Positions 33,582 through 46,641 of a stretch of 64,000 bases of DNA are shown in pieces. Where the stretch lies: positions 1,075,048 through 1,139,047 of the forward strand of contig NZ_JAFKCU010000001.1 in assembly GCF_017254845.1 (NCBI RefSeq), read 5' to 3'. The position numbers and the translations under genes were made by a program. The DNA is from Algoriphagus pacificus. Lineage in GTDB: Bacteria; Bacteroidota; Bacteroidia; Cytophagales; Cyclobacteriaceae. The stretch's first letter is position 1. Each line of letters begins with the position of its first letter. A model generated the notes under the pieces. The model was given only the letters and a program-made list of their open reading frames with translations. It did not search any database and had not been told where the DNA came from.

Positions 33582-33884
33582 TTACTTTTTTATAAACATT
33601 GTTCCTGAAATTTTTGATAGAGTCTGCCTTAGTATTTGGATTTCCTTTTCTGCTTTTTCAAACTTTTTGGATGTGGTAAAGTGAATCCCTTCTTTATTCA
33701 GATATTGAATTATATCAATGTCATAGATTTTTTCCATTTTAGATAATTGCTCAATGGAGGGTTTTGATTTCCCGCTTTCAATATTTGAAAGTGTTTTTTG
33801 TGAAATTTCTAATAGATGAGCTATTTCACTCTGGCTGAATCTTTTGGTTTCTCGAGCCTTTTTTAAATAATGTCCAATTTTCAT
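33582..33884 (-). CDS. XRE-family HTH regulator, at the edge of the peptide cluster
   Basis: 100 residues. The N-terminal 60 residues are an XRE/Cro helix-turn-helix: IGHYLKKARETKRFSQSEIAHLLEISQKTLSNIESGKSKPSIEQLSKMEKIY. A C-terminal coiled-coil-like helix (FEKAEKEIQILRQTLSKI) may help dimerise. It is divergent from the C39-like/VKOR/thioredoxin gene, and two inverted repeats lie in the 137-base gap, one perfect (TTACTAA-GAA-TTAGTAA). It is therefore a candidate local regulator of the peptide cluster, though it could also belong to an unrelated unit. Confidence 0.88.
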   Translation of the reverse strand: MKIGHYLKKARETKRFSQSEIAHLLEISQKTLSNIESGKSKPSIEQLSKMEKIYDIDIIQYLNKEGIHFTTSKKFEKAEKEIQILRQTLSKISGTMFIKK

Positions 33885-33906: not shown

Positions 33907-33914
33907 GGAAAAAT

Positions 33915-33931
33915 TTACTAAGAATTAGTAA
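33915..33931. promoter_or_regulatory. Perfect palindrome, candidate XRE operator
   Basis: TTACTAA and its exact complement TTAGTAA flank a three-base spacer, giving a 17-bp symmetrical site 31 bases upstream of the XRE start codon and about 90 bases upstream of the divergent operon. Size and position fit a dimeric XRE repressor. Confidence 0.5.
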
Positions 33932-34021: not shown

Positions 34022-35584
34022 ATGGATAATTGTTTAATAACCTCTACAAGATTTCTGAAGTTGGTAAACGTAACTTTTACCAAGCAATTTTTAAAAGAAA
34101 AGATCTTTAGTCACCCACAGTATCCTAGTCTTCTTTGCTTAACAGACACTTTGGAAGAATATGGAATAAAAACGATTCCCGTAAGTATAGGTGTTGAGAG
34201 GTTGATTGAAATTCCACTGCCTGCTATTGTGCAAGTATCAAATTTAAATGGCTCAAATTTTAATATAATCACATCAATTTCTAAGGATAAGGTTACCTTT
34301 TATGATGAAAATGGAAGACTTAAGGATTTGTCAAGTTTGGAATTTCAAAAGAACTGGACAGGTGTGAGTTTATTGATAGAATCACTCAATGGATCAAGAG
34401 ATCCTGAAATCTATAATAAAGTTAAAACTAATAGATTTATTAAATCTTCTTTTCTAATTGTTTGTTTGAGTTTTTTACTATTGCTAATCCGATCAATAAT
34501 AATTAGTGAAGTTAGTGTTTTAATGCTTTCCTATTTTTTACTTAAGGTCCTTGGAATCTCAGTCTCATTTATTCTTCTTTGGTATCAACAGGATAAGGAA
34601 AATCCTTCTCTCAAGAAATTTTGTACAAGTAGTAAAAATGTTGATTGTAATTCCATATTAGAGTCAAAAAAATTTCAATGGTTAGATGGTGGAATTAATC
34701 TTAGTTTAATTGTATTCTCTTATTTTATTGCTGGATTGGGATCCTTAATTATATTAAACTTTTCAAATATTACTTTTCTTGCATGGTTAAGCTTAGTCAC
34801 TTTCCCTGTGGTAATATTGTCATTCTATTTTCAGGCTTTTGTTTATAAAAAATGGTGCAAATTCTGTTTGTTAATTCAAGCTTTGTTAATAAGTGAATGT
34901 TTCTTTGTAGCTATTGGCTCTTTTTGGAAAGGAGATTTGAATCCAGATGGAGGACTATTATTTCTTTTCCTATTCGTTTGTGTAATAATAGCTGGCGTTT
35001 TAATAAAACCGATGATTAGATTGCAAGAGCAGGTTTTTCAATCTAAAAGACAATTATCAAAGCTAAAGAGTAACAAGGAATTATTTCAATTCTCACTTTC
35101 TCGATCCAAAAAAATGATAAATGATTCTCAAGGGATTGGAATTTTATTGAAGGGGAAAAATCCTAAATATGATATAATTAAAGTTTGTAATCCTTATTGT
35201 GGCCCTTGTTCTTTAATCCACCCAGAATTAGAGAATCTTTTTGATAAAGGAAACATTAACCTGCAAATAATTTTTTCATCGAGTGGTGGAGATGAAAGAA
35301 AGGAGAAAACTGTTCAACATTTGATGGCAGTTGACTCCAAAGGAAGTTTGGACTATATGAGAAGTGCACTTGATGATTGGTATGGAACAGAGAGGAAGGA
35401 TTATAATGAATTTGCCATTAAATATCCTATATATGAAGACCTCAGTAAACAGAAAGAGAAGATAATAGCAATGGATCAATGGTGTAAGCAAGAATCAATT
35501 TTGCAAACCCCTACATTATTTATTAATGGATATGAACTCCCAAGTACATACAGCATAAGTGATTTAAAGTATTTACTTTATTAA
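34022..35584 (+). CDS. C39-like / VKOR / thioredoxin fusion, disulfide-forming membrane protein
   Basis: 520 residues in three parts. Residues 1-120 resemble a C39 peptidase fold (HPQYPSLLCLTDTLEEYGIKT) but the catalytic DCGxxC and His are not in place, so it is probably a peptide-binding domain. Residues 140-340 are a VKOR domain with about five helices, a loop Cys pair (FCTSSKNVDCNSILESKKF) and the CxxC active site (KKWCKFCLLIQALL). Residues 370-520 are a thioredoxin/DsbA-like domain with CGPC (VCNPYCGPCSLIHPELENL) and a cis-Pro (LQTPTLFING). It should form or shuffle disulfides at the periplasmic side, using quinone. A good ribosome site (AGGAG) lies 4 bases before the ATG. It opens the peptide operon and probably oxidises the Cys-rich precursors that follow. 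Confidence 0.88.
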   Translation: MDNCLITSTRFLKLVNVTFTKQFLKEKIFSHPQYPSLLCLTDTLEEYGIKTIPVSIGVERLIEIPLPAIVQVSNLNGSNFNIITSISKDKVTFYDENGRLKDLSSLEFQKNWTGVSLLIESLNGSRDPEIYNKVKTNRFIKSSFLIVCLSFLLLLIRSIIISEVSVLMLSYFLLKVLGISVSFILLWYQQDKENPSLKKFCTSSKNVDCNSILESKKFQWLDGGINLSLIVFSYFIAGLGSLIILNFSNITFLAWLSLVTFPVVILSFYFQAFVYKKWCKFCLLIQALLISECFFVAIGSFWKGDLNPDGGLLFLFLFVCVIIAGVLIKPMIRLQEQVFQSKRQLSKLKSNKELFQFSLSRSKKMINDSQGIGILLKGKNPKYDIIKVCNPYCGPCSLIHPELENLFDKGNINLQIIFSSSGGDERKEKTVQHLMAVDSKGSLDYMRSALDDWYGTERKDYNEFAIKYPIYEDLSKQKEKIIAMDQWCKQESILQTPTLFINGYELPSTYSISDLKYLLY

Positions 35585-35626
35585 TAGTACTTGCAATATT
35601 CGTACAAGAAAGAGGTTATAAAATTA

Positions 35627-35646
35627 GGACATATACCTAGGTGTCC
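35627..35646. promoter_or_regulatory. Inverted-repeat element upstream of precursor 1
   Basis: GGACAT and GTGTCC flank eight bases, ending 44 bases before the precursor ATG. A near copy lies in the same position before precursor 2 at 36094-36114. The pair also shares ATATTCGT further upstream (35596-35603 and 36076-36083). It may be a regulator site or an RNA hairpin in the leader. Confidence 0.5.
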
Positions 35647-35690
35647 AAAAAAACTGTCTAGGAAAATCTTTTATGCTTAAATTAATAATT

Positions 35691-35924
35691 ATGAAGAAAA
35701 TGAGTTTGGGGAAATTGAAACTCTCTTCAGATGAAGTCTTGAAAAGAGATCAATTATCAACTATTTATGGTGGTTCTGATGATATTCCGCCATGTCACTA
35801 TGTGATTTATTGTGCTAGTGGGTCAACAGTAGGTCCAATTTATGGATGTTGTGGAACAGCACCTGGTACTTTTTGTGATGATTATGGAGGGGTGATCAAT
35901 TGCGTTAATTCACCTTGTTATTAA
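35691..35924 (+). CDS. Double-glycine-leader Cys-rich peptide precursor 1
   Basis: 77 residues from the ATG at 35691. The leader (residues 1-28) reads MSLGKLKLSSDEVLKRDQL then STIYGG, the Bacteroidota type of Gly-Gly leader cut by C39 peptidases. The 49-residue core holds seven Cys (core positions 7, 13, 25, 26, 34, 43 and 48), several Gly, Ser and Thr, and no long hydrophobic helix. It is likely exported by the C39 ABC transporter downstream. Possible modifications are disulfides, glycosylation or thioether rings. A strong stem-loop follows. The first ATG in frame at 35673 is less likely since it adds LKLII before the leader. Function (toxin, signal or other) cannot be read. Confidence 0.85.
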   Translation: MKKMSLGKLKLSSDEVLKRDQLSTIYGGSDDIPPCHYVIYCASGSTVGPIYGCCGTAPGTFCDDYGGVINCVNSPCY

Positions 35925-35935
35925 CTAATTTTATG

Positions 35936-35966
35936 CAATGTAATCTAGATATTTTAGATTACATTG
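35936..35966 (+). terminator. Stem-loop after precursor 1
   Basis: CAATGTAATCTA pairs perfectly with TAGATTACATTG around a seven-base loop, 11 bases after the stop, followed by a U-rich TATTATTTCTT. It probably ends or stabilises the precursor 1 mRNA. Confidence 0.75.
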
Positions 35967-36093
35967 TATTATTTCTTAAAAGAAATTTAATTAAAAAAAA
36001 CTGGGAAAATTTCTAAATAATATTTAATAGAAAGTTTTTTTGAAATGTAATAATGGGTCTGGTGATCCAAAATAGATATTCGTCGCGAAGAAT

Positions 36094-36114
36094 GGACATA
36101 TTTCTTGGATGTCC
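36094..36114. promoter_or_regulatory. Inverted-repeat element upstream of precursor 2
   Basis: GGACAT and ATGTCC form a perfect six-base inverted repeat around nine bases, ending 40 bases before the precursor 2 ATG. It matches the element before precursor 1 (GGACATAT, then CT-GG, then TGTCC). Confidence 0.55.
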
Positions 36115-36154
36115 TTAAACGACCAAGTATTGTTTTATTTAATTTATAAATATT

Positions 36155-36379
36155 ATGAACAAGTTGAGATTAGGAAAATTAAACCTTAATTCAAATGAAG
36201 TAATTGAAAGAAGTGAACTTGCTTTGATTTATGGAGGTTCAGAAGATTGTTTTAATTATATTTGTCATTGTGAAGATGGTGTAGAGTTTTCTTTAACTAC
36301 CGATGGAGATCCTTATACAGATGCAGGGTGTTCAAGTGGATGTGCCTCTGGATGTAGGACAAATTGTGCAGTAGCTTAA
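36155..36379 (+). CDS. Double-glycine-leader Cys-rich peptide precursor 2
   Basis: 74 residues. The leader (1-28) LRLGKLNLNSNEVIERSEL then ALIYGG is clearly homologous to that of precursor 1 (LGKL-L-S-EV--R--L--IYGGS). The 46-residue core holds seven Cys (core positions 4, 9, 11, 31, 35, 39 and 43). The last four are spaced CxxxCxxxCxxxC, an even four-residue period. Core sequence is otherwise unlike precursor 1. Both have a Ser directly after the Gly-Gly site. It is probably processed and exported by the downstream C39 ABC transporter and oxidised by the VKOR/thioredoxin fusion. No database family for the core is recognised. Confidence 0.85.
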   Translation: MNKLRLGKLNLNSNEVIERSELALIYGGSEDCFNYICHCEDGVEFSLTTDGDPYTDAGCSSGCASGCRTNCAVA

Positions 36380-36393
36380 ATTTTATCCAAGTT

Positions 36394-36425
36394 AGCGGAC
36401 TATCATTTGTGATAGTCCGCTTTAT
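36394..36425 (+). terminator. Stem-loop after precursor 2
   Basis: AGCGGACTATCA pairs perfectly with TGATAGTCCGCT around TTTG, followed by a short TTATAT. The weak T-tail suggests partial termination, which would keep precursor mRNA above the level of the downstream transport genes. Confidence 0.75.
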
Positions 36426-36452
36426 ATAAATGTGTATTGTTTTTTATAAAAT

Positions 36453-37565
36453 ATGTTTGTTCCTATACATAAGGATCTAATTGAATTTAAAATCCGTAGT
36501 TTACATTTGTTGGTTTTCGTGTTGTTGTTGGTTTTTATATATGTATTTTCAAGTTGTTCCAATGATACAAGTTCTGGAATTAATTCAATAAAAATCCCCA
36601 AAACAAATAATTCAAATTTACATTTGAATGATCTTGCTAAGAATGTTAGTAAAGTACCTCTAGAAACTAAAGTTGGTGCTTTTTTAACTTCTATTTTAGA
36701 AGTAAAAAGATTTAATGGAAATCTTTTAATTCGCGATACTAGCGGTAGTGTGCGGATTTTTGATTCCAAAGGTAATTTTGTTGGGAAATTAGGGGTAAGA
36801 GGAGAAGGACCTGGTGAGTACAGAAGCGCATATTCCATTGAAACTGATCAAGAATTAGGCTTAATTTATTTAGGGAGTATACGGAAGCTATTGGTATATG
36901 ACGAGAGGTATGAATTCGTAAAAGAAAAGAAATATTCCGATTTTATCACTTATATAAGTATTGTTGATCATAAGCCAATTTTGATTTTTGGAAGAGATTG
37001 GATTCCTGTTGAAAAAGGTTTCTCTAACCAAACTTTATTATTTGAATTATCCCCTGACCTTGATATAACTGACAGTATCCTATTGAGGAACACAATCCTA
37101 AAGGAAGCTGCTGGCATCAGATACACGAGTAAGCATTATTTAAGCAATAGTCGCGATGGTTCATTTTTATATACTCCTGTTTTGACCCAGGAGAATATTT
37201 TGAGAGATACGCTTTATAAATTTGAAAAGGATTCGATAATTCCTCATTTAAAGTTTGAATTTGAAGAGCCTCATTTTGACGAGAATGGCAAGAAGGCAGT
37301 TGATATTTATAATATTATGCACTCTTCTTCTTACATAATTTGTGAATATGCTCGAAATAAGGATAAAAAACTTTTTATATATAGTAAAAAGGAATCCAAG
37401 GGATATAATTTTGATTTTGGAGTATTAGATGAAGATGATCAACCAGTAGTTCTAAGACCTCTGGATCTAGAAAATGACATATTCTATTATGTAAAAGAAG
37501 AGAAGTTTCAAAATACTACAATGGAAGAAATGAATCCAGTTATAGGCATTGTAACATTAAAGTGA
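36453..37565 (+). CDS. Six-bladed beta-propeller lipoprotein in peptide cluster
   Basis: 370 residues. A lipoprotein signal (LHLLVFVLLLVFIYVFSSC, lipobox Cys about 35) precedes a beta-rich domain with propeller-like blades (VRIFDSKGNFVGKLGVRGEGPGEYRS, LIYLGSIRKLLVYDERYEFV). This is the BF3164/6-bladed beta-propeller type often found beside peptide exporters in Bacteroidota. Its role is not established; surface sensing, peptide binding or self-protection are possible. The next gene starts four bases after its stop, so it is in the transport operon. Confidence 0.8.
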   Translation: MFVPIHKDLIEFKIRSLHLLVFVLLLVFIYVFSSCSNDTSSGINSIKIPKTNNSNLHLNDLAKNVSKVPLETKVGAFLTSILEVKRFNGNLLIRDTSGSVRIFDSKGNFVGKLGVRGEGPGEYRSAYSIETDQELGLIYLGSIRKLLVYDERYEFVKEKKYSDFITYISIVDHKPILIFGRDWIPVEKGFSNQTLLFELSPDLDITDSILLRNTILKEAAGIRYTSKHYLSNSRDGSFLYTPVLTQENILRDTLYKFEKDSIIPHLKFEFEEPHFDENGKKAVDIYNIMHSSSYIICEYARNKDKKLFIYSKKESKGYNFDFGVLDEDDQPVVLRPLDLENDIFYYVKEEKFQNTTMEEMNPVIGIVTLK

Positions 37566-37569
37566 AAAA

Positions 37570-39771
37570 TTGAAACCTTCTTTTCCTTATTACAAACAAC
37601 CTGATTCCAAAGATTGTGGACCTACTTGTTTACGGATTATTGCCAAATATTATGGTAAACTCATTTCTCTAGAAGAGATTAGGAAGCTTTCCGAAACTAC
37701 GCGGTCTGGAAGCAATCTACTCAAACTTAGTGACGCTGCTGAAGCTATTGGATTTAAGAGTATTGGGGCAAAACTTGACTTTAAAAAATTAGAGCAAGCC
37801 CAATTTCCTTTGATAGTATTTTGGGACAAAAACCACTTTGTAGTAGTGTACAGGATAAAAAATGGTAAAGTATATCTTTCAGATCCTGCTTATGGTTTGA
37901 TCCAATTGACAAAAGAAGAATTTATTTCGAGATGGATTGGAAATAATGCTACAGAACAAAGTAAAGAGGGCATTACTCTTTTATTGGAGCCAACTCCTAA
38001 GTTTAAAGAACTTAAATGGGAAAGATCTAATCATCTTTCCTTAAAGTTTCTTTTTCAATATCTATTGAAATATAATAATCTTATTATTCAGCTGACAGTT
38101 GGTTTGTTGGTGGGTAGTTTGCTTCAATTAATTTTTCCTTTTTTGACACAAAGTATTGTGGATATTGGTATTCAAAACCAAGACATTGGTTTTATTTATT
38201 TGGTATTGACTGCGCAATTGATGCTATTTTTTGGAAGAACCAGTGTAGAAGTTTTTCGCAGTTGGATACTATTGCATCTTAGTACAAGAATTAATATTTC
38301 CCTTGTTTCCGATTTCTTCATAAAATTAATGAATCTTCCGATTTCCTTTTTTGATACTCGGATGACGGGGGATATTATGCAGAGGATCAACGATCATAAA
38401 AGAATTGAAAATTTGCTTACTGGATCAACTCTTAACACACTTTTTTCCTTCTTTAATCTTTTTGTATTTGGTGTTGTACTGTTATACTACAGCCCTTTGA
38501 TTTTTTTGATTTTTATGGGTGGAAGTATATTATATATATTTTGGATTCTCTATTTTCTCAAGCGAAGGAAAGAATTGGATTACATGCGTTTTGGACAACT
38601 TAGTCAAGAACAAAGTACTGTTATAGAGTTAATCAATGGGATGCAAGAAATAAAACTGCACAATGCCGAGACTCAAAAGCGGTGGAAATGGGAGTTTGCA
38701 CAGGCAAGACTGTTTCAGGTATCCATAAAAACACTTGCTTTAGAGCAAACCCAAGGAGTTGGATCTTCTATAATAAATGAGCTAAAAAACATCTTGGTTA
38801 CTTTTTCTTCCGCTCTTTTGGTAATTGAAGGGCAACTAACGCTTGGGATGATGCTTTCTCTCCAATATATTATCGGTCAACTTAATGGCCCAATAATGGG
38901 GATAGTAACCTTTGTCCGAACGTATCAAGATGCTAAAATAAGTTTAGAACGTTTGAATGAAATCCACGAAAAAGAAGAAGAAGAAGCAAAGGATAGACAG
39001 CTTCTTTATGATATTAAACCACAAGAAGATTTGATTATAGAGAACCTTAGCTTTAGATACATGGGAGCTGAGGAAAATGTACTTAAAGGAATAAATCTTA
39101 ATGTCCCTTGCAATAAAATAACTGCAGTAGTAGGTGCAAGTGGGTGTGGTAAAACAACCTTAATGAAACTTCTTCTCAAATTTTATGAGCCAAATAAAGG
39201 AAAAATTCAATATGGTCAAAATAATTTTGATTCAATTTCAGCAAGGAGTTGGAGAGATCATTGTGGTGTAGTGATGCAAGAAGGATATATTTTTAACGAT
39301 ACCATAGCCGCAAATATCGCTGTTGGTGAAGAAGTGATTGATCTCAATAAATTAGTAGTGGCTGCTCAAACTGCTAATATCGACGATTTTATTCAATCAC
39401 TTCCCCTAAAGTATAATACTGTAATTGGAAATGAAGGAATTGGGATTAGTACAGGACAAAAACAACGTTTATTTATTGCTCGTGCAGTATATAAAAATCC
39501 TGAAATTCTATTTTTTGACGAAGCAACTTCAGCCCTTGATGCTAAAAATGAGAGGGTTGTCATGGAAAATCTAAATAATTTTTTGAAAGGTAAAACGGTA
39601 TTTATCATTGCGCACCGCCTTAGTACTGTAAGAAATGCTGATCAAATAATCGTAATGGATGATGGAGAAATTAAAGAGTCTGGGACTCATGAAGAATTGA
39701 TTTTACTATCGGGGGTATATTATAATCTGGTTAAGAATCAATTGGACCTAGAAAAAATCAGTGCGAACTAA
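37570..39771 (+). CDS. Peptidase-containing ABC transporter (PCAT, C39 family)
   Basis: 733 residues, complete PCAT. N-terminal C39 protease domain with Gln10, catalytic Cys16 (QPDSKDCGPTC), His89 (NHFVVVY) and Asp105 (LSDPAYG). Then about six transmembrane helices (about residues 165-430) and the ABC ATPase: Walker A GASGCGKTT (about 520), an altered signature ISTGQKQR instead of LSGGQ, Walker B ILFFDEATSALD and H-loop IIAHRLST. It cuts after Gly-Gly leaders and exports the mature peptide. The start is TTG at 37570; there is no suitable ATG. The HlyD partner follows after two bases. Its substrates are most likely precursors 1 and 2. Confidence 0.95.
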   Translation: MKPSFPYYKQPDSKDCGPTCLRIIAKYYGKLISLEEIRKLSETTRSGSNLLKLSDAAEAIGFKSIGAKLDFKKLEQAQFPLIVFWDKNHFVVVYRIKNGKVYLSDPAYGLIQLTKEEFISRWIGNNATEQSKEGITLLLEPTPKFKELKWERSNHLSLKFLFQYLLKYNNLIIQLTVGLLVGSLLQLIFPFLTQSIVDIGIQNQDIGFIYLVLTAQLMLFFGRTSVEVFRSWILLHLSTRINISLVSDFFIKLMNLPISFFDTRMTGDIMQRINDHKRIENLLTGSTLNTLFSFFNLFVFGVVLLYYSPLIFLIFMGGSILYIFWILYFLKRRKELDYMRFGQLSQEQSTVIELINGMQEIKLHNAETQKRWKWEFAQARLFQVSIKTLALEQTQGVGSSIINELKNILVTFSSALLVIEGQLTLGMMLSLQYIIGQLNGPIMGIVTFVRTYQDAKISLERLNEIHEKEEEEAKDRQLLYDIKPQEDLIIENLSFRYMGAEENVLKGINLNVPCNKITAVVGASGCGKTTLMKLLLKFYEPNKGKIQYGQNNFDSISARSWRDHCGVVMQEGYIFNDTIAANIAVGEEVIDLNKLVVAAQTANIDDFIQSLPLKYNTVIGNEGIGISTGQKQRLFIARAVYKNPEILFFDEATSALDAKNERVVMENLNNFLKGKTVFIIAHRLSTVRNADQIIVMDDGEIKESGTHEELILLSGVYYNLVKNQLDLEKISAN

Positions 39772-39773
39772 TA

Positions 39774-41078
39774 ATGCCATTAAGAAATCAAAATATAGAT
39801 GATTTAAATCTGAGATCAGAAGAGGTTCAAGAGATTATTTCTACACCCCCATCTTGGCTTATTAGATGGGGAATTACCTTAGTATTTATTATTACTTGTT
39901 TTTTGATATTCTTATCCTTTTTTATAAAATATCCCGATTTTATTAACTCTAGAATAATGGTTACCACCCTAGAGCCTACTGAAAAAATAATAGCTGTAAA
40001 CTCAGGTCAAATTGAAAAATTTTTTTTAGCGAATCGAGAAAAGGTAAAGGCTGGGCAGCCAATAGCAATTATTAAAAACGCATCTGATTTGAGAAGTGTT
40101 ATGATGCTTAAAAAAATAATTGAAGGTATCACCTTCACCGAAAGTAATGATTTTTATTTTCCTATGGACTCTTTGTCAGGTGCTGACTTGGGAGAAATAG
40201 AACCTGCATTTGTGGTTTTTGAAAGGAATTACTTAGAATATAGGCTGCTTAAAAGGCTTCAGCCCGCTTTGATTCAATTGGAAAGGAACAAAAAGTCAAT
40301 TCTAGAAATTCAAGAACGCTTAAATAGTCAATACGCCCAAAAAGAAATATTAGAAAGAAAGTTGATTATAGTAGAGAAGGATTTCAATCGAAATTTGTTG
40401 CTTTTTGAAGATGGTGTTATTGCTGAAAAAGATTTCGAAAGAAAGGAATTGGAATATCTTCAAATGCAAGAACAAGCAAATGGGATTGCAATAACTATTT
40501 CGCAACTTCAAGAAGCTCTTTTTAATGCTGGTCATTTACTTAAAAGTACTCAAATGACAAAGGAACAAGAGGAATCGAGAGTTTTAATTAGTCTTATTCA
40601 GTCCTATTATGCTTTAAAAAGGGCATTGAAGGAATGGGAACGCAATTATCTATTGATTTCCTCTACTGATGGTCAAGTTAGTTTTCAAGGGATATGGGGA
40701 GAGAATCAATTCGTAAAAACAGGGGAACATGTATTTACAATATTGCCCGAGCAGCGTTCAGATCTTTTAGGTAAAATGATTGTCTCTTCTAAAAACACCG
40801 GAAAAATTAATGTGGGGCAACGTGTATTAATTAAGTTAGATAACTTCCCCTTTCAACAATTTGGTACCATTAGCGGAAAAGTAGGGAGTATATCTGTCTC
40901 TCCTGATGAGGAAGGGAATTATTTGGTTTATTGCACTCTTCCACTTGGAACAAGAACCTCGTTTGGGAAACAGATTCAAATAAACCAAGAACTTTTGGGA
41001 ACAGCCGAAATTATAACGCAGGATTTAAGTGTTGCGGAAAGATTATTTTTCAAATTAAAATCGATCAATGAATATTAA
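39774..41078 (+). CDS. HlyD-family membrane fusion protein
   Basis: 434 residues: one N-terminal transmembrane helix (GITLVFIITCFLIFLSFFI, about 31-49), a lipoyl-like half (IIAVNSGQIEKFFLANREKVKAGQPIAIIKNA), a long coiled coil (about 150-280) and a beta-barrel part (SSTDGQVSFQG, GKINVGQRVLIKLDNFPFQQFG). This is the periplasmic adaptor that links the C39 ABC transporter to an outer-membrane TolC-like channel, for which no gene is present here. It starts two bases after the transporter stop. The LanC-like gene follows after 14 bases. Confidence 0.92.
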   Translation: MPLRNQNIDDLNLRSEEVQEIISTPPSWLIRWGITLVFIITCFLIFLSFFIKYPDFINSRIMVTTLEPTEKIIAVNSGQIEKFFLANREKVKAGQPIAIIKNASDLRSVMMLKKIIEGITFTESNDFYFPMDSLSGADLGEIEPAFVVFERNYLEYRLLKRLQPALIQLERNKKSILEIQERLNSQYAQKEILERKLIIVEKDFNRNLLLFEDGVIAEKDFERKELEYLQMQEQANGIAITISQLQEALFNAGHLLKSTQMTKEQEESRVLISLIQSYYALKRALKEWERNYLLISSTDGQVSFQGIWGENQFVKTGEHVFTILPEQRSDLLGKMIVSSKNTGKINVGQRVLIKLDNFPFQQFGTISGKVGSISVSPDEEGNYLVYCTLPLGTRTSFGKQIQINQELLGTAEIITQDLSVAERLFFKLKSINEY

Positions 41079-41092
41079 AAGAAATTATTTAC

Positions 41093-42154
41093 ATGAAAAA
41101 TCTTGATGAAATCAATAAACTTTTATTAGTCAATGCAAAAGAAAATCATGTTTTAGGTTTATTGAATGGTAAGTTGGGTTTAACCATTTACTTTTACCAT
41201 TTTGCAAAAAAAAATAAAAATCATAAGCTTCAAGAATTAGCAGATCATTTGGTTGGGGAGATTTTCGAAAAATCGAGAGAAGCTCGCCTAGAAGCTGATT
41301 TTGAAAATGGTCTGGCAGGAATTGCTTTTGGAATCACTTATTTGGTAAATAATGATTTTGTTGATGCCGATCTAAATGAAACGTTGAGTGAATTGGACGA
41401 TAGGATTTTTAGATTTTTAGATGATCAAAGAACCAATCTTCAAGCAAATTTAAGAAACGGCATTTTAGGTTACTTGATTTATAGTCTTGATCGATTGAAA
41501 AGTTCAATAGAATCAGGCAACAATTCAAATATTTATATTTTTAAAAACCTAACTGCTAGTTTGATTAATCAGCTTGGGAAATTGATTGAAGAAGAAAAAA
41601 TCCAAGACAGAGAACCGCAACTTTTCAATATTTATTGGGATTTGCCCCTTTCACTAATTGTTCTAGGAAGAGCAAAAAATTTGAAAGTAAATGATTCTAA
41701 AATTGATCGAATTATTGATTATCTAATACCAAATTTAATAACCCTATTTCCCAGTCTTCACAGTAATAGATTATATCTTTTATTAGGGATAGAAACATAT
41801 TTAAAAGAGACTGATTGCCCTGAGCTAAGAAAATATGCGGATTTTTTGATTAGGGAAATTGATCTTGAGCTGATTTTAAATACTGAGTTAAAGAATCTAA
41901 ATATTTCTGTTAATGATGGTTTAACTGGTTTAAGTTTGATTTCAAATAGACTAAATGAAATAAAAGGAAATAAAGAGCTCCTAATTTCAGATGAAAAAGT
42001 TTATCAAAAAGCAATAGAATTAGAAAAAGGTGGGAGAAATGAATTTTATGACAAATTCAAAGAAAGTATTGGCTTTGCATCTGGATTGACAGGACTAGCG
42101 TGGGCTATCTTTGAAATAATGGAATTAAATGAAAAATCTCTAAAAGTAATTTGA
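41093..42154 (+). CDS. LanC-like alpha/alpha-barrel protein lacking zinc ligands
   Basis: 353 residues, all-helical with repeats of the LanC type: LGLLNGKLGLTIYFYHF, FENGLAGIAFGITYLV, LRNGILGYLIYSL, NIYWDLPLSLIVLG, VNDGLTGLSLISNRL and FASGLTGLAWAIFEI. LanC enzymes need zinc bound by a Cys (WCYG) and a Cys-His (CHG) pair; neither motif is here and the protein has only one Cys. It therefore is unlikely to form thioether rings in the usual way. It may be a scaffold, a peptide-binding subunit or an enzyme of changed chemistry. It lies between HlyD and the glycosyltransferase-like gene, in the same operon. Confidence 0.75.
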   Translation: MKNLDEINKLLLVNAKENHVLGLLNGKLGLTIYFYHFAKKNKNHKLQELADHLVGEIFEKSREARLEADFENGLAGIAFGITYLVNNDFVDADLNETLSELDDRIFRFLDDQRTNLQANLRNGILGYLIYSLDRLKSSIESGNNSNIYIFKNLTASLINQLGKLIEEEKIQDREPQLFNIYWDLPLSLIVLGRAKNLKVNDSKIDRIIDYLIPNLITLFPSLHSNRLYLLLGIETYLKETDCPELRKYADFLIREIDLELILNTELKNLNISVNDGLTGLSLISNRLNEIKGNKELLISDEKVYQKAIELEKGGRNEFYDKFKESIGFASGLTGLAWAIFEIMELNEKSLKVI

Positions 42155-42161
42155 AAGTAAT

Positions 42162-42938
42162 ATGAGAAAAATAAACTTAAAAGACTTTACCGTTTTAATT
42201 CCATTACGAATTGATACAGTTAATCGCTTGGAAAATACATTAGTAACTGTAGACTATTTAAATTCAAATTTTGATACGCAAATTAGTGTATTAGAGGCTT
42301 CTGAAAGAAATTCTCATCTACTAAAAAGATTATTACCGCAAGAGGTAAACTTTAGCTTCATTGAAGATCTTGACAATATTTTTCATCGAACAAAATACAT
42401 TAATCAATTAGTTAGAACTGTTAAAACTGAATATATCATAGTTTGGGATACAGATATTATAATTCCTTTTGAACAGATTGAAGAATCAGTAAATTTATTG
42501 AGAAAGAGAGAAGCTGATTTTGTAATTCCTTACAAGGATAAATTTTTGGATACCTCGAAAATTTTAAGAGATCTTTTTATACATACTAAAGAAGTTAATC
42601 TTCTTAAAGCTCACCAAGGTAAAATGAAGATATTATACAACCCTAATCCTGTTGGAGGAGTATTTATGGCAAATTTGAAATCATATGTGGAGGCAGGAAT
42701 GGAAAATGAAAAATTTTATGGATGGGGTAGGGAAGACGGAGACCGTGTTAATCGCTGGAATATTATGGGTAAAAAACACAAACATGTTGAAGGGGTTCTA
42801 TTTCACCTTTCACATGAACGAGGAGTAAATAGTTCCTTTCATAGCCCAAATCAGGACAGCCGAAAAATGGTTGAAATTCACCGTTCTTTTGTCATGTCGA
42901 AAGAAGAACTTCAAAAGGAAATAAAAACTTGGTGGTAA
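42162..42938 (+). CDS. GT-A glycosyltransferase-like protein (galactosyltransferase-type) in peptide cluster
   Basis: 258 residues. A GT-A fold is suggested by the N-terminal beta strand FTVLIPLRIDTVNR, the DxD metal motif in IIVWDTDIII (Asp96 and Asp98), and GWGREDGDRVNRW (about 187-199), which resembles the WGWxxEDxD box of beta-galactosyltransferases (GT7 and relatives). A conserved-looking VLFHLSHER follows. It starts eight bases after the LanC-like gene and closes the operon. It could add sugars to the exported peptides, as in glycocins, or to another acceptor. There are no transmembrane helices, so it acts in the cytoplasm. Confidence 0.75.
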   Translation: MRKINLKDFTVLIPLRIDTVNRLENTLVTVDYLNSNFDTQISVLEASERNSHLLKRLLPQEVNFSFIEDLDNIFHRTKYINQLVRTVKTEYIIVWDTDIIIPFEQIEESVNLLRKREADFVIPYKDKFLDTSKILRDLFIHTKEVNLLKAHQGKMKILYNPNPVGGVFMANLKSYVEAGMENEKFYGWGREDGDRVNRWNIMGKKHKHVEGVLFHLSHERGVNSSFHSPNQDSRKMVEIHRSFVMSKEELQKEIKTWW

Positions 42939-43545: not shown

Positions 43546-45105
43546 ATGATGGCTAACCGACCCCTAACCATGAATAAGATTCGACAGATTTTGAGAGGCC
43601 ATTTTGAAGGCCGTGGCACCAAACAGCTGAGCCAGATTACCGGGGTAGCCCGTAATACTGTTAAAAGTTATCTCAGACGGTTCAAAGAAACAACACTGAC
43701 TCACCAAGAAGTGGAATTGCTGTCTGATGAAGCACTTTCTGAGACGATTCTCGGCCCCCCTGCTCCCCAGCAGCAAAGTAAGCGACAGGAAATCCTGTCC
43801 GCTCTATTGCCCAAGATCTCCAAAGAACTCCGGCGCAAATGCATGACCCAGCAGCTACTATGGGAGGATTACATTGCCAAACACCCCCAGGGGTACCGCC
43901 CTAGCCAGTTCAAAGCCTATCTGAGCGAATACCTGAACCGGAGGAGCCTGACGATGCATTTTGAACACAAGGCCGGAGATAAGGTATTTATTAATTATGC
44001 CGGCAAGCCTCTCTACATCACCGACCCGGAGACAGGAGAGCATCTCCCCGAGCAGGTGTTTGTAGGCGTGCTTGGGTGTAGCCAATACACCTATCTGGAG
44101 GCTACACTGAGCCAAAAGAAAGAGGATTTTACAGAAAGTTGCCGCAGGATGCTGGAGTACTACGGAGGTGTTCCCAGAGCTATAGTCCCTGATAATCTGA
44201 AGTCGGCAGTTCAAAAGGGCAGTAGGTTTTCCCCTATACTTAACGAGACCTATGAATCCTTTGCAGAACATTATGGCACCGCCATTCTTCCCACACGTCC
44301 TCGCCAGCCAAGGGAAAAATCACTAGTGGAAGGCGCTGTTAAACTGGTTTATCAGCGGATCTATATTCATCTTCAGAACAAGGTGTTCTTTTCATTGGAA
44401 GGGCTCAATGAAGCATTAAAGCCACTTTTGGCTTCCTATAATGAACGTGCCCTCCGTGGAGAAGAAAGCCGCAGGGAACAGTTTGATCAGCTCGAACGGG
44501 AAAGTCTACAGGCACTTCCTGCCCTGCCTTACCAACTCATGCAGGTCAAAATCTCCACGGTAATGAAAAACACACACATCTGCCTGGCCGAGGATAAGCA
44601 CTACTATAGCGTTCCCCATCAGTTCATCGGCAAGAAAGTCAAAGTACTCTACAACAACGACCGGGTAGAGATTTTCTACCGGTACCATCGCATAGCCCAA
44701 CACAAAAGAGACCGGCGCAAGCACAAGTACACCACTTCTGCAGATCACCTGGCAGCAAGTCAGCGGTACGTATCCAGCTGGAATTATGACTATTTTGTCT
44801 GCGAAGGGAATAAGATCAGTAGTGAGGTCGGTGATTACATGGCCGCTCTGATGGAAACCAAACCCCATGCCGAGCAGGGCTACAAGTCCTGTGCAGGGAT
44901 CCTCCATCTGGCCAAAAAAGCCGGAACCTCCCGGCTGATCCAAGCCTGTAGACGGGCTGCCGAGTACGGGATCTATACTTATCCAATCATACAGGATATC
45001 CTTTCCAAGAACCTTGACGCCCTCAGCCCTGCTGAAGAACAGCCGGAGGACAATGCACTGACTCCCCACCACCATAACATCCGGGGTAAAGAATATTACA
45101 GTTAA
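43546..45105 (+). CDS. istA: IS21-family transposase IstA
   Basis: 519 residues. N-terminal helix-turn-helix (LTMNKIRQILRGHFEGRGTKQLSQITGVARNTVKSYLRRF), then a DDE integrase core: GDKVFINYAGKPLYI (first Asp region), GVPRAIVPDNLKSAV (second Asp), and PRQPREKSLVEGAV (Glu), followed by a C-terminal beta-barrel domain (VKISTVMKNTHICLAEDKHYYSVPHQFIGKKVKV). It cuts and joins the IS ends. GC content is clearly above that of the surrounding AT-rich genes. istB follows after 12 bases. Confidence 0.95.
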   Translation: MMANRPLTMNKIRQILRGHFEGRGTKQLSQITGVARNTVKSYLRRFKETTLTHQEVELLSDEALSETILGPPAPQQQSKRQEILSALLPKISKELRRKCMTQQLLWEDYIAKHPQGYRPSQFKAYLSEYLNRRSLTMHFEHKAGDKVFINYAGKPLYITDPETGEHLPEQVFVGVLGCSQYTYLEATLSQKKEDFTESCRRMLEYYGGVPRAIVPDNLKSAVQKGSRFSPILNETYESFAEHYGTAILPTRPRQPREKSLVEGAVKLVYQRIYIHLQNKVFFSLEGLNEALKPLLASYNERALRGEESRREQFDQLERESLQALPALPYQLMQVKISTVMKNTHICLAEDKHYYSVPHQFIGKKVKVLYNNDRVEIFYRYHRIAQHKRDRRKHKYTTSADHLAASQRYVSSWNYDYFVCEGNKISSEVGDYMAALMETKPHAEQGYKSCAGILHLAKKAGTSRLIQACRRAAEYGIYTYPIIQDILSKNLDALSPAEEQPEDNALTPHHHNIRGKEYYS

Positions 45106-45117
45106 AACCAAAAACAA

Positions 45118-45861
45118 ATGATCGAACAAACACTTGAAAAAATGAGAAAAATGAAGCTCTACGGTATGGTCCGAAGCTTTAAGCACGTAACCCAAACCCC
45201 GTCAATGGATCAGCTCACCCCAGACGAACTGATCCACTTATTGGTGGAAAACGAATGGGATGAACGCAAAAACAGGAGTATGGAACGAAGCCTGAGAAAC
45301 GCCAGATTCCGGTATAAAGCTACCATTGAGGGCCTTGACTTCCATCCGGAAAGAATGCTCGACAAAAATCAGCTGCTCCGACTGGCAGACGGCGGCTACA
45401 TCAAAAAGGGAGAGAACATACTGCTGACAGGAAGTACCGGAACAGGGAAAAGCTACCTTGCCTGTGCGCTGGGTAATCAAGCCTGCTCACAAGGGTACAA
45501 AGTACTATACACCAGTACCAACAGGTTGCTCACTCATCTGAAAATGGCAAAAGCTGATGGATCATCCATAAAAGAAATGATCAAGATAGAAAAGCAGGAT
45601 ATACTGATTTTGGATGATTTTGGAATCCAACCTCTGGACATTCAGAGCAGAATGCTGCTGATGGAAATCATCGAAGACCGGCACGGGAAAAAGTCAACCA
45701 TCATCACCTCTCAACTACCCGTTAACGCCTGGTATGAAGTGATCGGTGATCAGACCTTGGCAGATGCAATTCTCGACAGGATCGTGCACGATGCACACCG
45801 CATGGAACTCCAGGGTGAGTCTCTGAGAAAAAAACGAAAAATAAACCAAGACAACTCTTAA
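45118..45861 (+). CDS. istB: IS21-family helper ATPase IstB
   Basis: 247 residues, DnaC/IstB-type AAA+ ATPase: Walker A LTGSTGTGKSYLACALG, Walker B ILILDDFGIQPLD, sensor IITSQLPVNAWYEVIGDQTLADAILDRIVHDAHRMEL. IstB selects and bends target DNA and activates IstA. Frame and length are complete. It is the last gene of the element, ending about 50 bases before the right repeats. Confidence 0.95.
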   Translation: MIEQTLEKMRKMKLYGMVRSFKHVTQTPSMDQLTPDELIHLLVENEWDERKNRSMERSLRNARFRYKATIEGLDFHPERMLDKNQLLRLADGGYIKKGENILLTGSTGTGKSYLACALGNQACSQGYKVLYTSTNRLLTHLKMAKADGSSIKEMIKIEKQDILILDDFGIQPLDIQSRMLLMEIIEDRHGKKSTIITSQLPVNAWYEVIGDQTLADAILDRIVHDAHRMELQGESLRKKRKINQDNS

Positions 45862-45904: not shown

Positions 45905-46624
45905 CTAACTCAAGGGGGTCAATTTCCAGCGGCGACAGGGGGTCAATTTAATCGGCATATGCACCAAGGGAACTGTTGCTTGGTTTTTAATGAAAATGGA
46001 TGTTTCTGATAATTGTTTGCTCCATAAATCACTGTGATAATTTACCAGTAACTGACTTTCTAGTAAATAGTCCCATATGATCTCTTTGTCATGGAATGAT
46101 ACATCAGGGAAAGCTCTTAGTACACGGGCTTGGTCCAATTCTGGATCATGAAAGGCCAATTCTTTAAGTTTTTGAATCAAGGGCCCATCTTGGACTTTTG
46201 AGTACCTCCATTCTTCCTTTTCTCTATCGAAGTTCCAAAATCTCCATCCATCCGACCATGGCTGTATACTTGGGTTGAGCCAGTAAAACCCCGAATTATC
46301 TTTATACTCTTTGATTTGTACTTCTTCAACTGAACTTGCAGATGGAATTTCAGAGCTCTCATTCAATTCATTTTCCCAATTTGCAATTCCTACTCCCGCC
46401 CATTTTCCAAACGGAGTGGGTCTATATCTCCCTCTTATTAGATACTTATAAACTGACTTTTGTTCCTTGTCAGAAAGCTGATCCGGTAGTTTTTTGTGAA
46501 TGCTCTTAAATAGATCCTGACTTGATAGCTGGATTCTTTCAAGGATTTCAGGCCAATGTTTTTGAATGGCCTCAAAATCATGAATATCAAAATTTATAAG
46601 AGGAGATCTAAATAGGAGAGACAT
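45905..46624 (-). pseudogene. Lantibiotic dehydratase (LanB) N-terminal fragment, cut by IS21
   Basis: The frame encodes about 222 native residues from MSLLFRSPLINFDIHDF, then reads into the IS end (after about 45958) for a last few foreign residues. The hallmark KYLIRGRYRPTPFGKWAGVG is the LanB N-terminal signature. LanB uses glutamyl-tRNA to dehydrate Ser and Thr in lanthipeptide precursors and normally has 600-1000 residues, so more than half is missing. The rest is not found on the far side of the IS element, which points to deletion or rearrangement through IS copies. The ATG at 46624 is preferred over 46639. Its base composition is nearer to the host than to the AT-rich peptide operon. 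Confidence 0.8.
45914..45949 (-). repeat. Right multiple terminal repeats of IS21
   Basis: Two copies of GGGGGTCAATTT start at 45914 and 45938, 24 bases apart and inverted relative to the left repeats. Confidence 0.8.
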
Positions 46625-46641
46625 GCTTTTTTCTCCCAATC

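Follow-up and report, generated by a model that had tools for sequence, protein, structure and literature searches.

What does an operon make when it sets a LanC-like protein that has lost its zinc ligands beside a glycosyltransferase (GT)? The question is raised by eight genes of Algoriphagus pacificus, which lie in a 64,000-nucleotide stretch of one contig (the window). All coordinates below are positions in the window; L numbers denote loci, G numbers genomes (G000 is the own genome) and C numbers contigs of the own genome. An earlier note on this DNA had described an AT-rich cluster for exported Cys-rich peptides, with a disulfide-forming VKOR/thioredoxin fusion, two precursors with Gly-Gly leaders, a beta-propeller lipoprotein, a C39-peptidase ABC exporter (PCAT), an HlyD adaptor, a zincless LanC-like protein and a GT. 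All eight open reading frames (ORFs) proved to be open and to lie on the plus strand in that order, and Pfam matched the families (Table 1). The G+C content, calculated in 2-kb windows, was 0.30 to 0.34 across the operon and about 0.36 to 0.42 in most other parts. Such a system of peptides, exporter, disulfide-forming enzyme, LanC-like protein and GT is supported. The operon probably makes, oxidizes and exports small Cys-rich peptides, and the GT, together with the metal-free relative of lanthionine enzymes, may attach a sugar to them.

The LanC-like protein contains a single Cys among its 353 residues, which makes a Cys-Cys-His zinc site impossible and bears out what had been noted about its ligands. 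It has the alpha/alpha toroid fold of LanC, and a comparison with the PDB placed it nearest, by sequence, to class III LanKC proteins (4.6e-8). We placed it in a tree of profile-called ORFs of 320 to 470 amino acids, which leaves out fused LANC_like proteins from G576, G235, G582 and G407, the broken gene of L029 and the fragment of L032; L146 was grouped with the LanB side of the tree although no LanB was in view there. The GT-linked proteins fall together, 22 rows in all, on a single side of one branch (97/93). None of the 23 GT-linked LanC-like proteins had a Cys at the aligned Cys-ligand columns, compared with 14 of 21 on the LanB side. The gene is under purifying selection, with a dN of 0.089 and a dS of 0.61 between L053 and L054.

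The gene order VKOR-precursor-propeller-PCAT-HlyD-LanC-GT recurs in the neighborhoods of relatives, and the own genome carries a second copy of the operon on C49 (LanC 58%, GT 69%). A profile of the zincless LanC matched 10 of 60 genus genomes, and the GT matched 11; one of the GT matches was a 53-residue stretch with a stop, and the other 10 were in the same genomes as LanC (Fisher 1.3e-11 for LanC and full GT, assuming independent genomes, which they are not). The LanC-like gene adjoined a GT gene in 20 of 23 loci and shared a cluster with one in 22, the additional two being L025 (with L108) and L026; L024 lies at a contig end. These counts omit L003 and L004, and the neighborhood survey omits five weaker LanC matches (three places in G047, and one each in G136 and G072). 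The GT and LanC-like genes are therefore co-conserved with the precursors in relatives, one of the two checks on which the earlier note had staked its proposal. A third cluster of the own genome, on C48 (L057:7775-14213), contains VKOR, PCAT, GT and GT32-like genes, with a gene for a 341-amino-acid protein in the LanC-like place between PCAT and GT. We rejected this protein as a LanC, since it had no Pfam match and matched our own profile only weakly and with bias.

We then asked what kind of GT is involved. Eighteen homologues have WDxD, GWGxxDGxR and HLxH in common, and W95, D96, D98, G187-W188-G189 and D192 are invariant among them, giving the DXD and GWGxxD elements of a GT7-like galactosyltransferase. 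The nearest entries in a PDB profile search were beta-1,4-galactosyltransferases, with beta4GalT7 first at 9e-6. A scan of NCBIfam, which we take to contain a SunS-like glycocin GT profile, returned TIGR04440 alone at E values up to 1, and no glycocin-type GT profile. The parallel drawn earlier with glycocin clusters is consequently no more than a functional analogy. An AlphaFold model of the GT was discarded (pLDDT 47.4). At L164 (9388-11863), a 437-amino-acid GT homologue adjoins a 389-amino-acid C39-peptidase protein, without LanC.

The partner GTs belong to varied families, namely GT7-like, GT10 and GT4. In L030 the gene next to LanC encodes a GT10 fucosyltransferase-like protein, and in L075 it encodes a GT4 that is TIGR04157-like (204 bits against a cutoff of 400), which indicates that the coupling of LanC to a GT is independent of GT family. 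L108 has a UDP-galactopyranose mutase (418 bits against a cutoff of 304) and a GT2, and the mutase is consistent with a galactose-type donor there. The GT7C protein of L032 has a weak sulfotransferase match. In L027 and L028, LanC and GT occur with DUF3405 and an FkbM methyltransferase, and in L027 also with a WcaL-like GT4, making a possible oligosaccharide variant.

The LanC-like gene also adjoins a GT gene in three Parabacteroides loci and on one Rhizosphaericola plasmid. Parabacteroides distasonis NZ_OY725766 has VKOR, a 59-amino-acid peptide with 6 Cys, DUF4369, LanC, a galactosyltransferase-related protein, a GT-A protein and PCAT; NZ_OY725771, of the same species, has a propeller, C39, thioredoxin, a LanC-like protein and GT. 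A third P. distasonis record, NZ_OY725758 (L253), has TIGR04149, a radical SAM protein (rSAM), a pseudo-rSAM, a propeller, a LanC-like protein, a TIGR04157 GT, another GT, further propellers and PCAT. On Rhizosphaericola mali pB3-10 the order is GT, then the LanC-like gene. The Parabacteroides records are labeled as plasmids, yet their genes look chromosomal. The plasmid-record neighborhoods cover 3 of 15 records with a GT match and 3 of 5 with a LanC match.

Both precursors have, by sequence, a Gly-Gly-type leader, which together with the PCAT gives the combination found in glycocins. Their matches to the TIGR04149 leader family are weak (0.0067 and 0.0012; 16.3 and 18.7 bits against a curated cutoff of 25). 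Translation of precursor 1 most likely starts at 35691 rather than at the upstream ATG at 35673, because the leaders of relatives begin with MKK. The cores are hypervariable and Cys-rich, and they vary freely even behind near-identical leaders. Among the distinct cores that follow the RNA element described below, 42 of 48 contain an even number of Cys residues (binomial 5e-8, treating cores as independent; the odd ORF L202:7577 was excluded beforehand). Such parity, which disulfides would require, points toward the oxidation that the earlier note had proposed, but the two cores of the window, with 7 Cys each, depart from the trend. Several cores have a C-C-CC-C-C spacing, which we take to resemble that of cystine knots. 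The two sevens had suggested S-glycosylation, in which an odd count is expected because one Cys would carry the sugar; the relatives are mixed and the larger set is mostly even, and we retained the idea as a weak hint only. In the candidate oxidizing enzyme, Pfam recognized VKOR (6e-11) and, below threshold, thioredoxin (0.015). Its Peptidase_C39 match covers the 133-position profile only from position 27 onward, and the C39-like part therefore lacks the end that presumably holds the catalytic Cys. Beside a precursor in one LanC/GT cluster (L023:14939-15883) there is a weak ATP-grasp match (0.005).

Ahead of each window precursor lies a covarying RNA of about 59 nucleotides, here called R1, consisting of a hairpin plus an H-type pseudoknot. 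P1 has 5 bp and a loop with UCGCGA, P2 has 6 bp, and the P2 loop pairs with a downstream strand over 5 bp. Loop 1 is about 3 to 4 nucleotides, loop 2 is absent, and loop 3 is about 7 to 11 nucleotides, a geometry that suits an H-type pseudoknot. In an alignment of 14 copies, from which the structure had also been read, 94.2% of cells were paired, and sliding the partners lowered pairing to 47% or less. P2 was 100% paired, with double changes at 6 of 6 pairs, and the pseudoknot was 97.1% paired, with double changes at 4 of 5 pairs. A search model made of P1 and P2 only, which excluded the pseudoknot, gave 54 matches in 30 loci, adding 40 copies to the 14; L049:980 was dropped as the same place as L048:17480, and the counts are based on the remaining 53. 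Across the 48 distinct copies, 94.8% of cells were paired, compared with at most 51.5% in slid controls. The pseudoknot, although it was no part of the model, was paired in 95.7% of cells, again with double changes at 4 of 5 pairs. A register-free test recovered it in 42 of the 48 distinct copies; when the tails were shuffled 2,000 times, the mean was 22.9 copies and no shuffle exceeded 32. The phylum-level copies (17 distinct, mostly from a Flavobacteriaceae-like family, f7) covaried too, with 88.3% of pseudoknot cells paired. R1 therefore has the compensatory base changes of a structured RNA. Its structure follows from this covariation; its regulatory role is inferred.

R1 was found in 14 of 60 genomes of the genus (including 8 of the 10 with LanC and GT), 19 of 148 of the family and 8 of 296 of the phylum, five of these from f7. 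Of 53 copies, 50 stood ahead of a Gly-Gly-leader precursor whose core had 30 residues or more; the exceptions were L209, L202:7577 and L205:6429 (an 11-residue core). At the phylum level, a Gly-Gly-leader ORF followed 15 of 16 copies, mostly with another leader type resembling MKKxILNLGKxLxKxEQKxIxGG. By our own profiles, a propeller was the next gene after 36 of 52 R1-preceded ORFs. No Rfam 15 family matched at R1, either in the window at gathering thresholds or in permissive searches of window positions 35560 to 36200 and of L048, L055 and L050, and our literature search on such RNAs found nothing relevant. R1 resembles cis-regulatory H-type pseudoknot RNAs in being a 5'-region pseudoknot at a narrow distance from the start codon, and differs from them in having no Rfam 15 match and in being tied to secreted Gly-Gly peptides. 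Directly 5' of P1 there is a conserved A-tract, perhaps part of the fold (A at -1 in 98% and at -3 in 96% of 50 distinct upstream stretches). Five R1-precursor clusters without LanC or GT (L196, L198, L200, L203 and L207) have, after HlyD, in the place of LanC/GT, a DUF6734 protein of about 545 amino acids with a DGD motif. Perhaps it is another sugar transferase; comparison by profile with a set of GT32-like proteins yielded no match, and we did not accept it as a GT.

R1 could instead be a DNA-level site, used for example in the exchange of precursor cassettes, or a mere processing or stability signal. Freely varying cores behind near-identical leaders would suit such a site, and R1 cassettes do repeat in tandem, with up to 7 copies of the element per family genome. 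There is also no promoter motif directly ahead of R1: TAnnTTTG, the Bacteroidetes promoter motif, occurred in the 90 nucleotides upstream in 0 of 50 distinct stretches, where 2.3 were expected. An RNA fits better with the compensatory changes that preserve the pairing of loop and tail, and a start-site RNA fits better with the 22 to 25 nucleotides between R1 and the start codon in 42 of 53 copies. We consider a nonregulatory R1 unlikely.

Taken as a whole, the explanation that we favor, with slightly better than even confidence, is that the operon makes two bacteriocin-like, disulfide-rich peptides that are controlled by an RNA, glycosylated by the GT with its LanC-like partner and exported by the PCAT; LanC and GT would then be an accessory module attached to members of a broader family, the RNA-precursor-propeller cassettes. 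It is based on gene order, protein families, the loss of zinc ligands, the co-occurrence with GTs, the mostly even Cys counts, and the covariation and position of R1. A divergently encoded helix-turn-helix (HTH) regulator would act on the promoter region. In the transcript, each precursor segment would be flanked by a 5' R1, which ends about 22 nucleotides before the start codon, and by a 3' hairpin, and R1 would control translation, stability or both, setting the amount of precursor relative to the enzymes. In the cytoplasm, the GT7-like enzyme would place a galactose-like hexose on the core, with the zincless toroid serving as its peptide-binding partner and not as a cyclase. The PCAT, judged by its family, would cleave after Gly-Gly and export the peptide with HlyD. 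On the periplasmic side, the C39-like/VKOR/thioredoxin-like protein would form the disulfides, to which the Cys parity lends support, and its C39-like domain may hold the leader. The propeller, from its pairing with precursors, would be a cognate surface partner or an immunity protein.

Several observations weigh against this explanation. Two GT homologues, in L164 and L165, have no visible LanC; the GT also has matches of about 28% in 10 Azospirillum records, whereas the LanC query matched none from Azospirillum. R1 was not found in the three Parabacteroides and Rhizosphaericola stretches searched, which means that the LanC/GT module does not require it. Energy folding of five copies gave R1 no support (z of -0.01 to -1.0), pseudoknots not being modeled there, and its two helices might alternate instead of coexisting. 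No PCAT was present in the fetched LanC and GT stretches L027, L028, L030 and L056, some of which end at contig ends, so there may be another acceptor. The composition of the cores hardly differs between clusters with and without LanC/GT: Ser, Thr and Asn are not enriched in the former, Asp is the sole difference among nine residues compared (p 0.003, uncorrected), and odd Cys counts occur in 4 of 14 against 2 of 34 cores (Fisher 0.052, post hoc). The missing PCATs and the similar cores suit a different target for the GT and LanC-like protein, for example the propeller protein or a glycan on the cell surface that shields the producer, as do the UDP-galactopyranose mutase and GT4 neighbors, both of which are typical of surface glycans. 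Arguing for the peptides, the LanC and GT genes lie directly behind PCAT/HlyD and the precursors in most loci, and in Parabacteroides they stand beside an rSAM maturase of ribosomally synthesized and posttranslationally modified peptides (RiPPs). We regard another target as rather unlikely.

Also weighing against the favored explanation, zinc ligands are absent from 7 of the 21 LanC proteins on the LanB side. Zinc loss is therefore not specific to GT partners, and we rejected a clean rule in which zinc LanC goes with LanB and zincless LanC with GT. Moreover, DUF6625 genes, perhaps GT-like, lie near some LanB clusters. Zincless LanC proteins beside LanB would also suit a rival reading in which the LanC-like protein is a zinc-independent cyclase that makes thioether rings, with dehydration supplied by a LanB encoded elsewhere. 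Class III LanKC cyclase domains, the closest PDB relatives, work without zinc, and LanB is common in the genus, with matches in 18 of 60 genomes and, in G000, at four places (C1, C23, C38 and C48) besides a remnant beside the operon. Even so, LanB had no match in 3 of the 10 genomes of the genus that carry the zincless LanC-like protein and GT. In the stretches surrounding the 23 GT-linked loci, the only LanB that our own profiles detected was the broken remnant beside the window operon. LanM was found in 0 of 18 genomes in a search whose positive control gave no signal. The disulfide machinery and mostly even Cys counts would, in addition, reserve the thiols for disulfides. A cyclase is, in our judgment, improbable, and the LanC-like protein differs from class I LanC and class III LanKC cyclases in standing alone, without zinc ligands and without a dehydratase partner in the operon.

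How does the operon relate to known systems? Glycocins, such as sublancin and glycocin F, have the set of activities that is predicted here: a leader peptide, a PCAT, disulfides and a GT. Here, however, the GT is GT7-like, with no glycocin GT profile returned by NCBIfam, a LanC-like protein, a propeller and HlyD are present, the host belongs to the Bacteroidota, and the leader is weakly TIGR04149-like. Functionally the operon may resemble a glycocin cluster, yet it does not belong to that type: its GT is GT7-like, and three genomes have the LanC-GT pair without LanB. Thermoglycocin, according to the part of its description available to us, has three disulfides plus a glycosylated Ser and Cys (PMC12457901). 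Closer in kind are the Bacteroidales clusters BGC3 to BGC5, for which the accessible part of the report (PMC10352776, Fernandez-Cantos et al. 2023) describes LanC that lacks a zinc motif and occurs with rSAM but without LanB, together with Gly-Gly-type precursors; a GT is present in BGC3, and BGC5 has CAZymes. Sets of rSAM, LanC and a peptide S-glycosyltransferase (GlyS) are described there for certain strains of B. fragilis and P. distasonis. L253 is a cluster of this kind. The operon shares the zincless LanC without LanB, the GT and the Gly-Gly precursors, and differs in having no rSAM, a VKOR fusion instead, a GT7-like GT and a structured RNA. In the accessible part of PMC10352776 there is no word VKOR, no proposal of a LanC-GT partnership and no mention of an RNA. 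The earlier note, which knew of no description of the combination, is thus only partly right, since zincless LanC without LanB and the rSAM, LanC and GlyS sets are in print. Three features go beyond what that part of the paper contains: VKOR combined with a GT7-like enzyme, the strict adjacency of LanC and GT, and R1. The accessible part of PMC13289728 has nothing on the system, and a literature search that covered few subscription papers found no description of it.

The surroundings supplied further features that the earlier note had not mentioned: both copies of R1, a divergent HTH gene accompanied by an operator-like site and, past the operon, an IS21-like element followed by a truncated remnant of LanB (Table 1). 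ORFs of 80 to 87 amino acids with similar starts lie near VKOR in L050, L053, L054 and L055. The operator-like site also occurs ahead of VKOR in L051, L053 and L054 and ahead of extra precursors in L021, L047, L048 and L053, and was not found ahead of VKOR in L021, L022, L023, L048, L049, L050 and L055; 0.015 sites are expected per 16 kb of shuffled window. Hairpins are common after precursor stops, with a mean z of -3.79 and 36 of 51 below -2 (mononucleotide shuffles).

Table 1. Features of the operon and its flanks, in window coordinates
Feature	Position	Strand	Basis
Small HTH regulator (XRE-like by eye), divergent from operon	33582..33884	-	ORF
Operator-like palindrome TTTACT-N5-TTAGTAA between HTH gene and VKOR	33914..33931	+	14 stretches scanned
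Degenerate C39-like/VKOR/thioredoxin-like fusion, predicted disulfide formation	34022..35584	+	Pfam; conserved in relatives
R1 copy 1 (P2 and pseudoknot; P1 degenerate)	35609..35669	+	Model, 43.5 bits
Precursor 1: Gly-Gly leader, 49-aa core, 7 Cys	35691..35924	+	Longer ORF from 35673
Terminator-like hairpin after precursor 1	35933..35969	+	Hairpins common after precursor stops
R1 copy 2 (P1, P2, pseudoknot)	36077..36134	+	Model, 53.6 bits
Precursor 2: Gly-Gly leader, 46-aa core, 7 Cys	36155..36379	+	ORF, leader comparison
Perfect 12-bp inverted repeat after precursor 2	36394..36421	+	Sequence
6-bladed beta-propeller, probable lipoprotein (DUF5128)	36453..37565	+	Pfam DUF5128 1e-19
C39-peptidase ABC exporter (PCAT)	37570..39771	+	Pfam Peptidase_C39 2e-35 plus ABC domains
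HlyD-type adaptor	39774..41078	+	Pfam HlyD_3 2e-12
LanC-like alpha/alpha toroid without zinc ligands	41093..42154	+	Pfam LANC_like 9e-8
GT-A glycosyltransferase, GT7 (beta4GalT)-like, WDTD and GWGREDGDR motifs	42162..42938	+	Pfam Glyco_transf_7C 3e-5
IS21-like element (istA, istB by eye), directly downstream of operon	43546-45861		G+C 0.48
N-terminal piece of LanB-type dehydratase, cut at edge of IS21-like element; remainder not in view	45905-46639	-	Lant_dehydr_N 3.5e-10

If the favored explanation is right, the puzzling zincless LanC proteins of Bacteroidota gain a testable role as GT partners, and glycosylated disulfide-rich peptides are predicted in this phylum, gut Parabacteroides included; to our knowledge, few bacteriocins have been characterized in Bacteroidota. 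The cores of such precursors vary too much for ordinary searches, and R1 offers a handle for finding their genes. A bolder proposal, which we rate as less likely than not, is that the zincless LanC of this Bacteroidota clade is, instead of a cyclase, a novel standing partner of peptide GTs from several unrelated families, presenting the peptide or priming it, and that R1 is a new class of cis-regulatory RNA that serves secreted Gly-Gly peptides throughout the phylum. The first part, if true, would mean a superfamily of glycosylated RiPPs that extends from marine to gut Bacteroidota. The second would make R1 perhaps a switch that senses the export state or a ligand, or an element that pairs through its palindromic UCGCGA loop; as a switch, it would be a new class of regulatory RNA.

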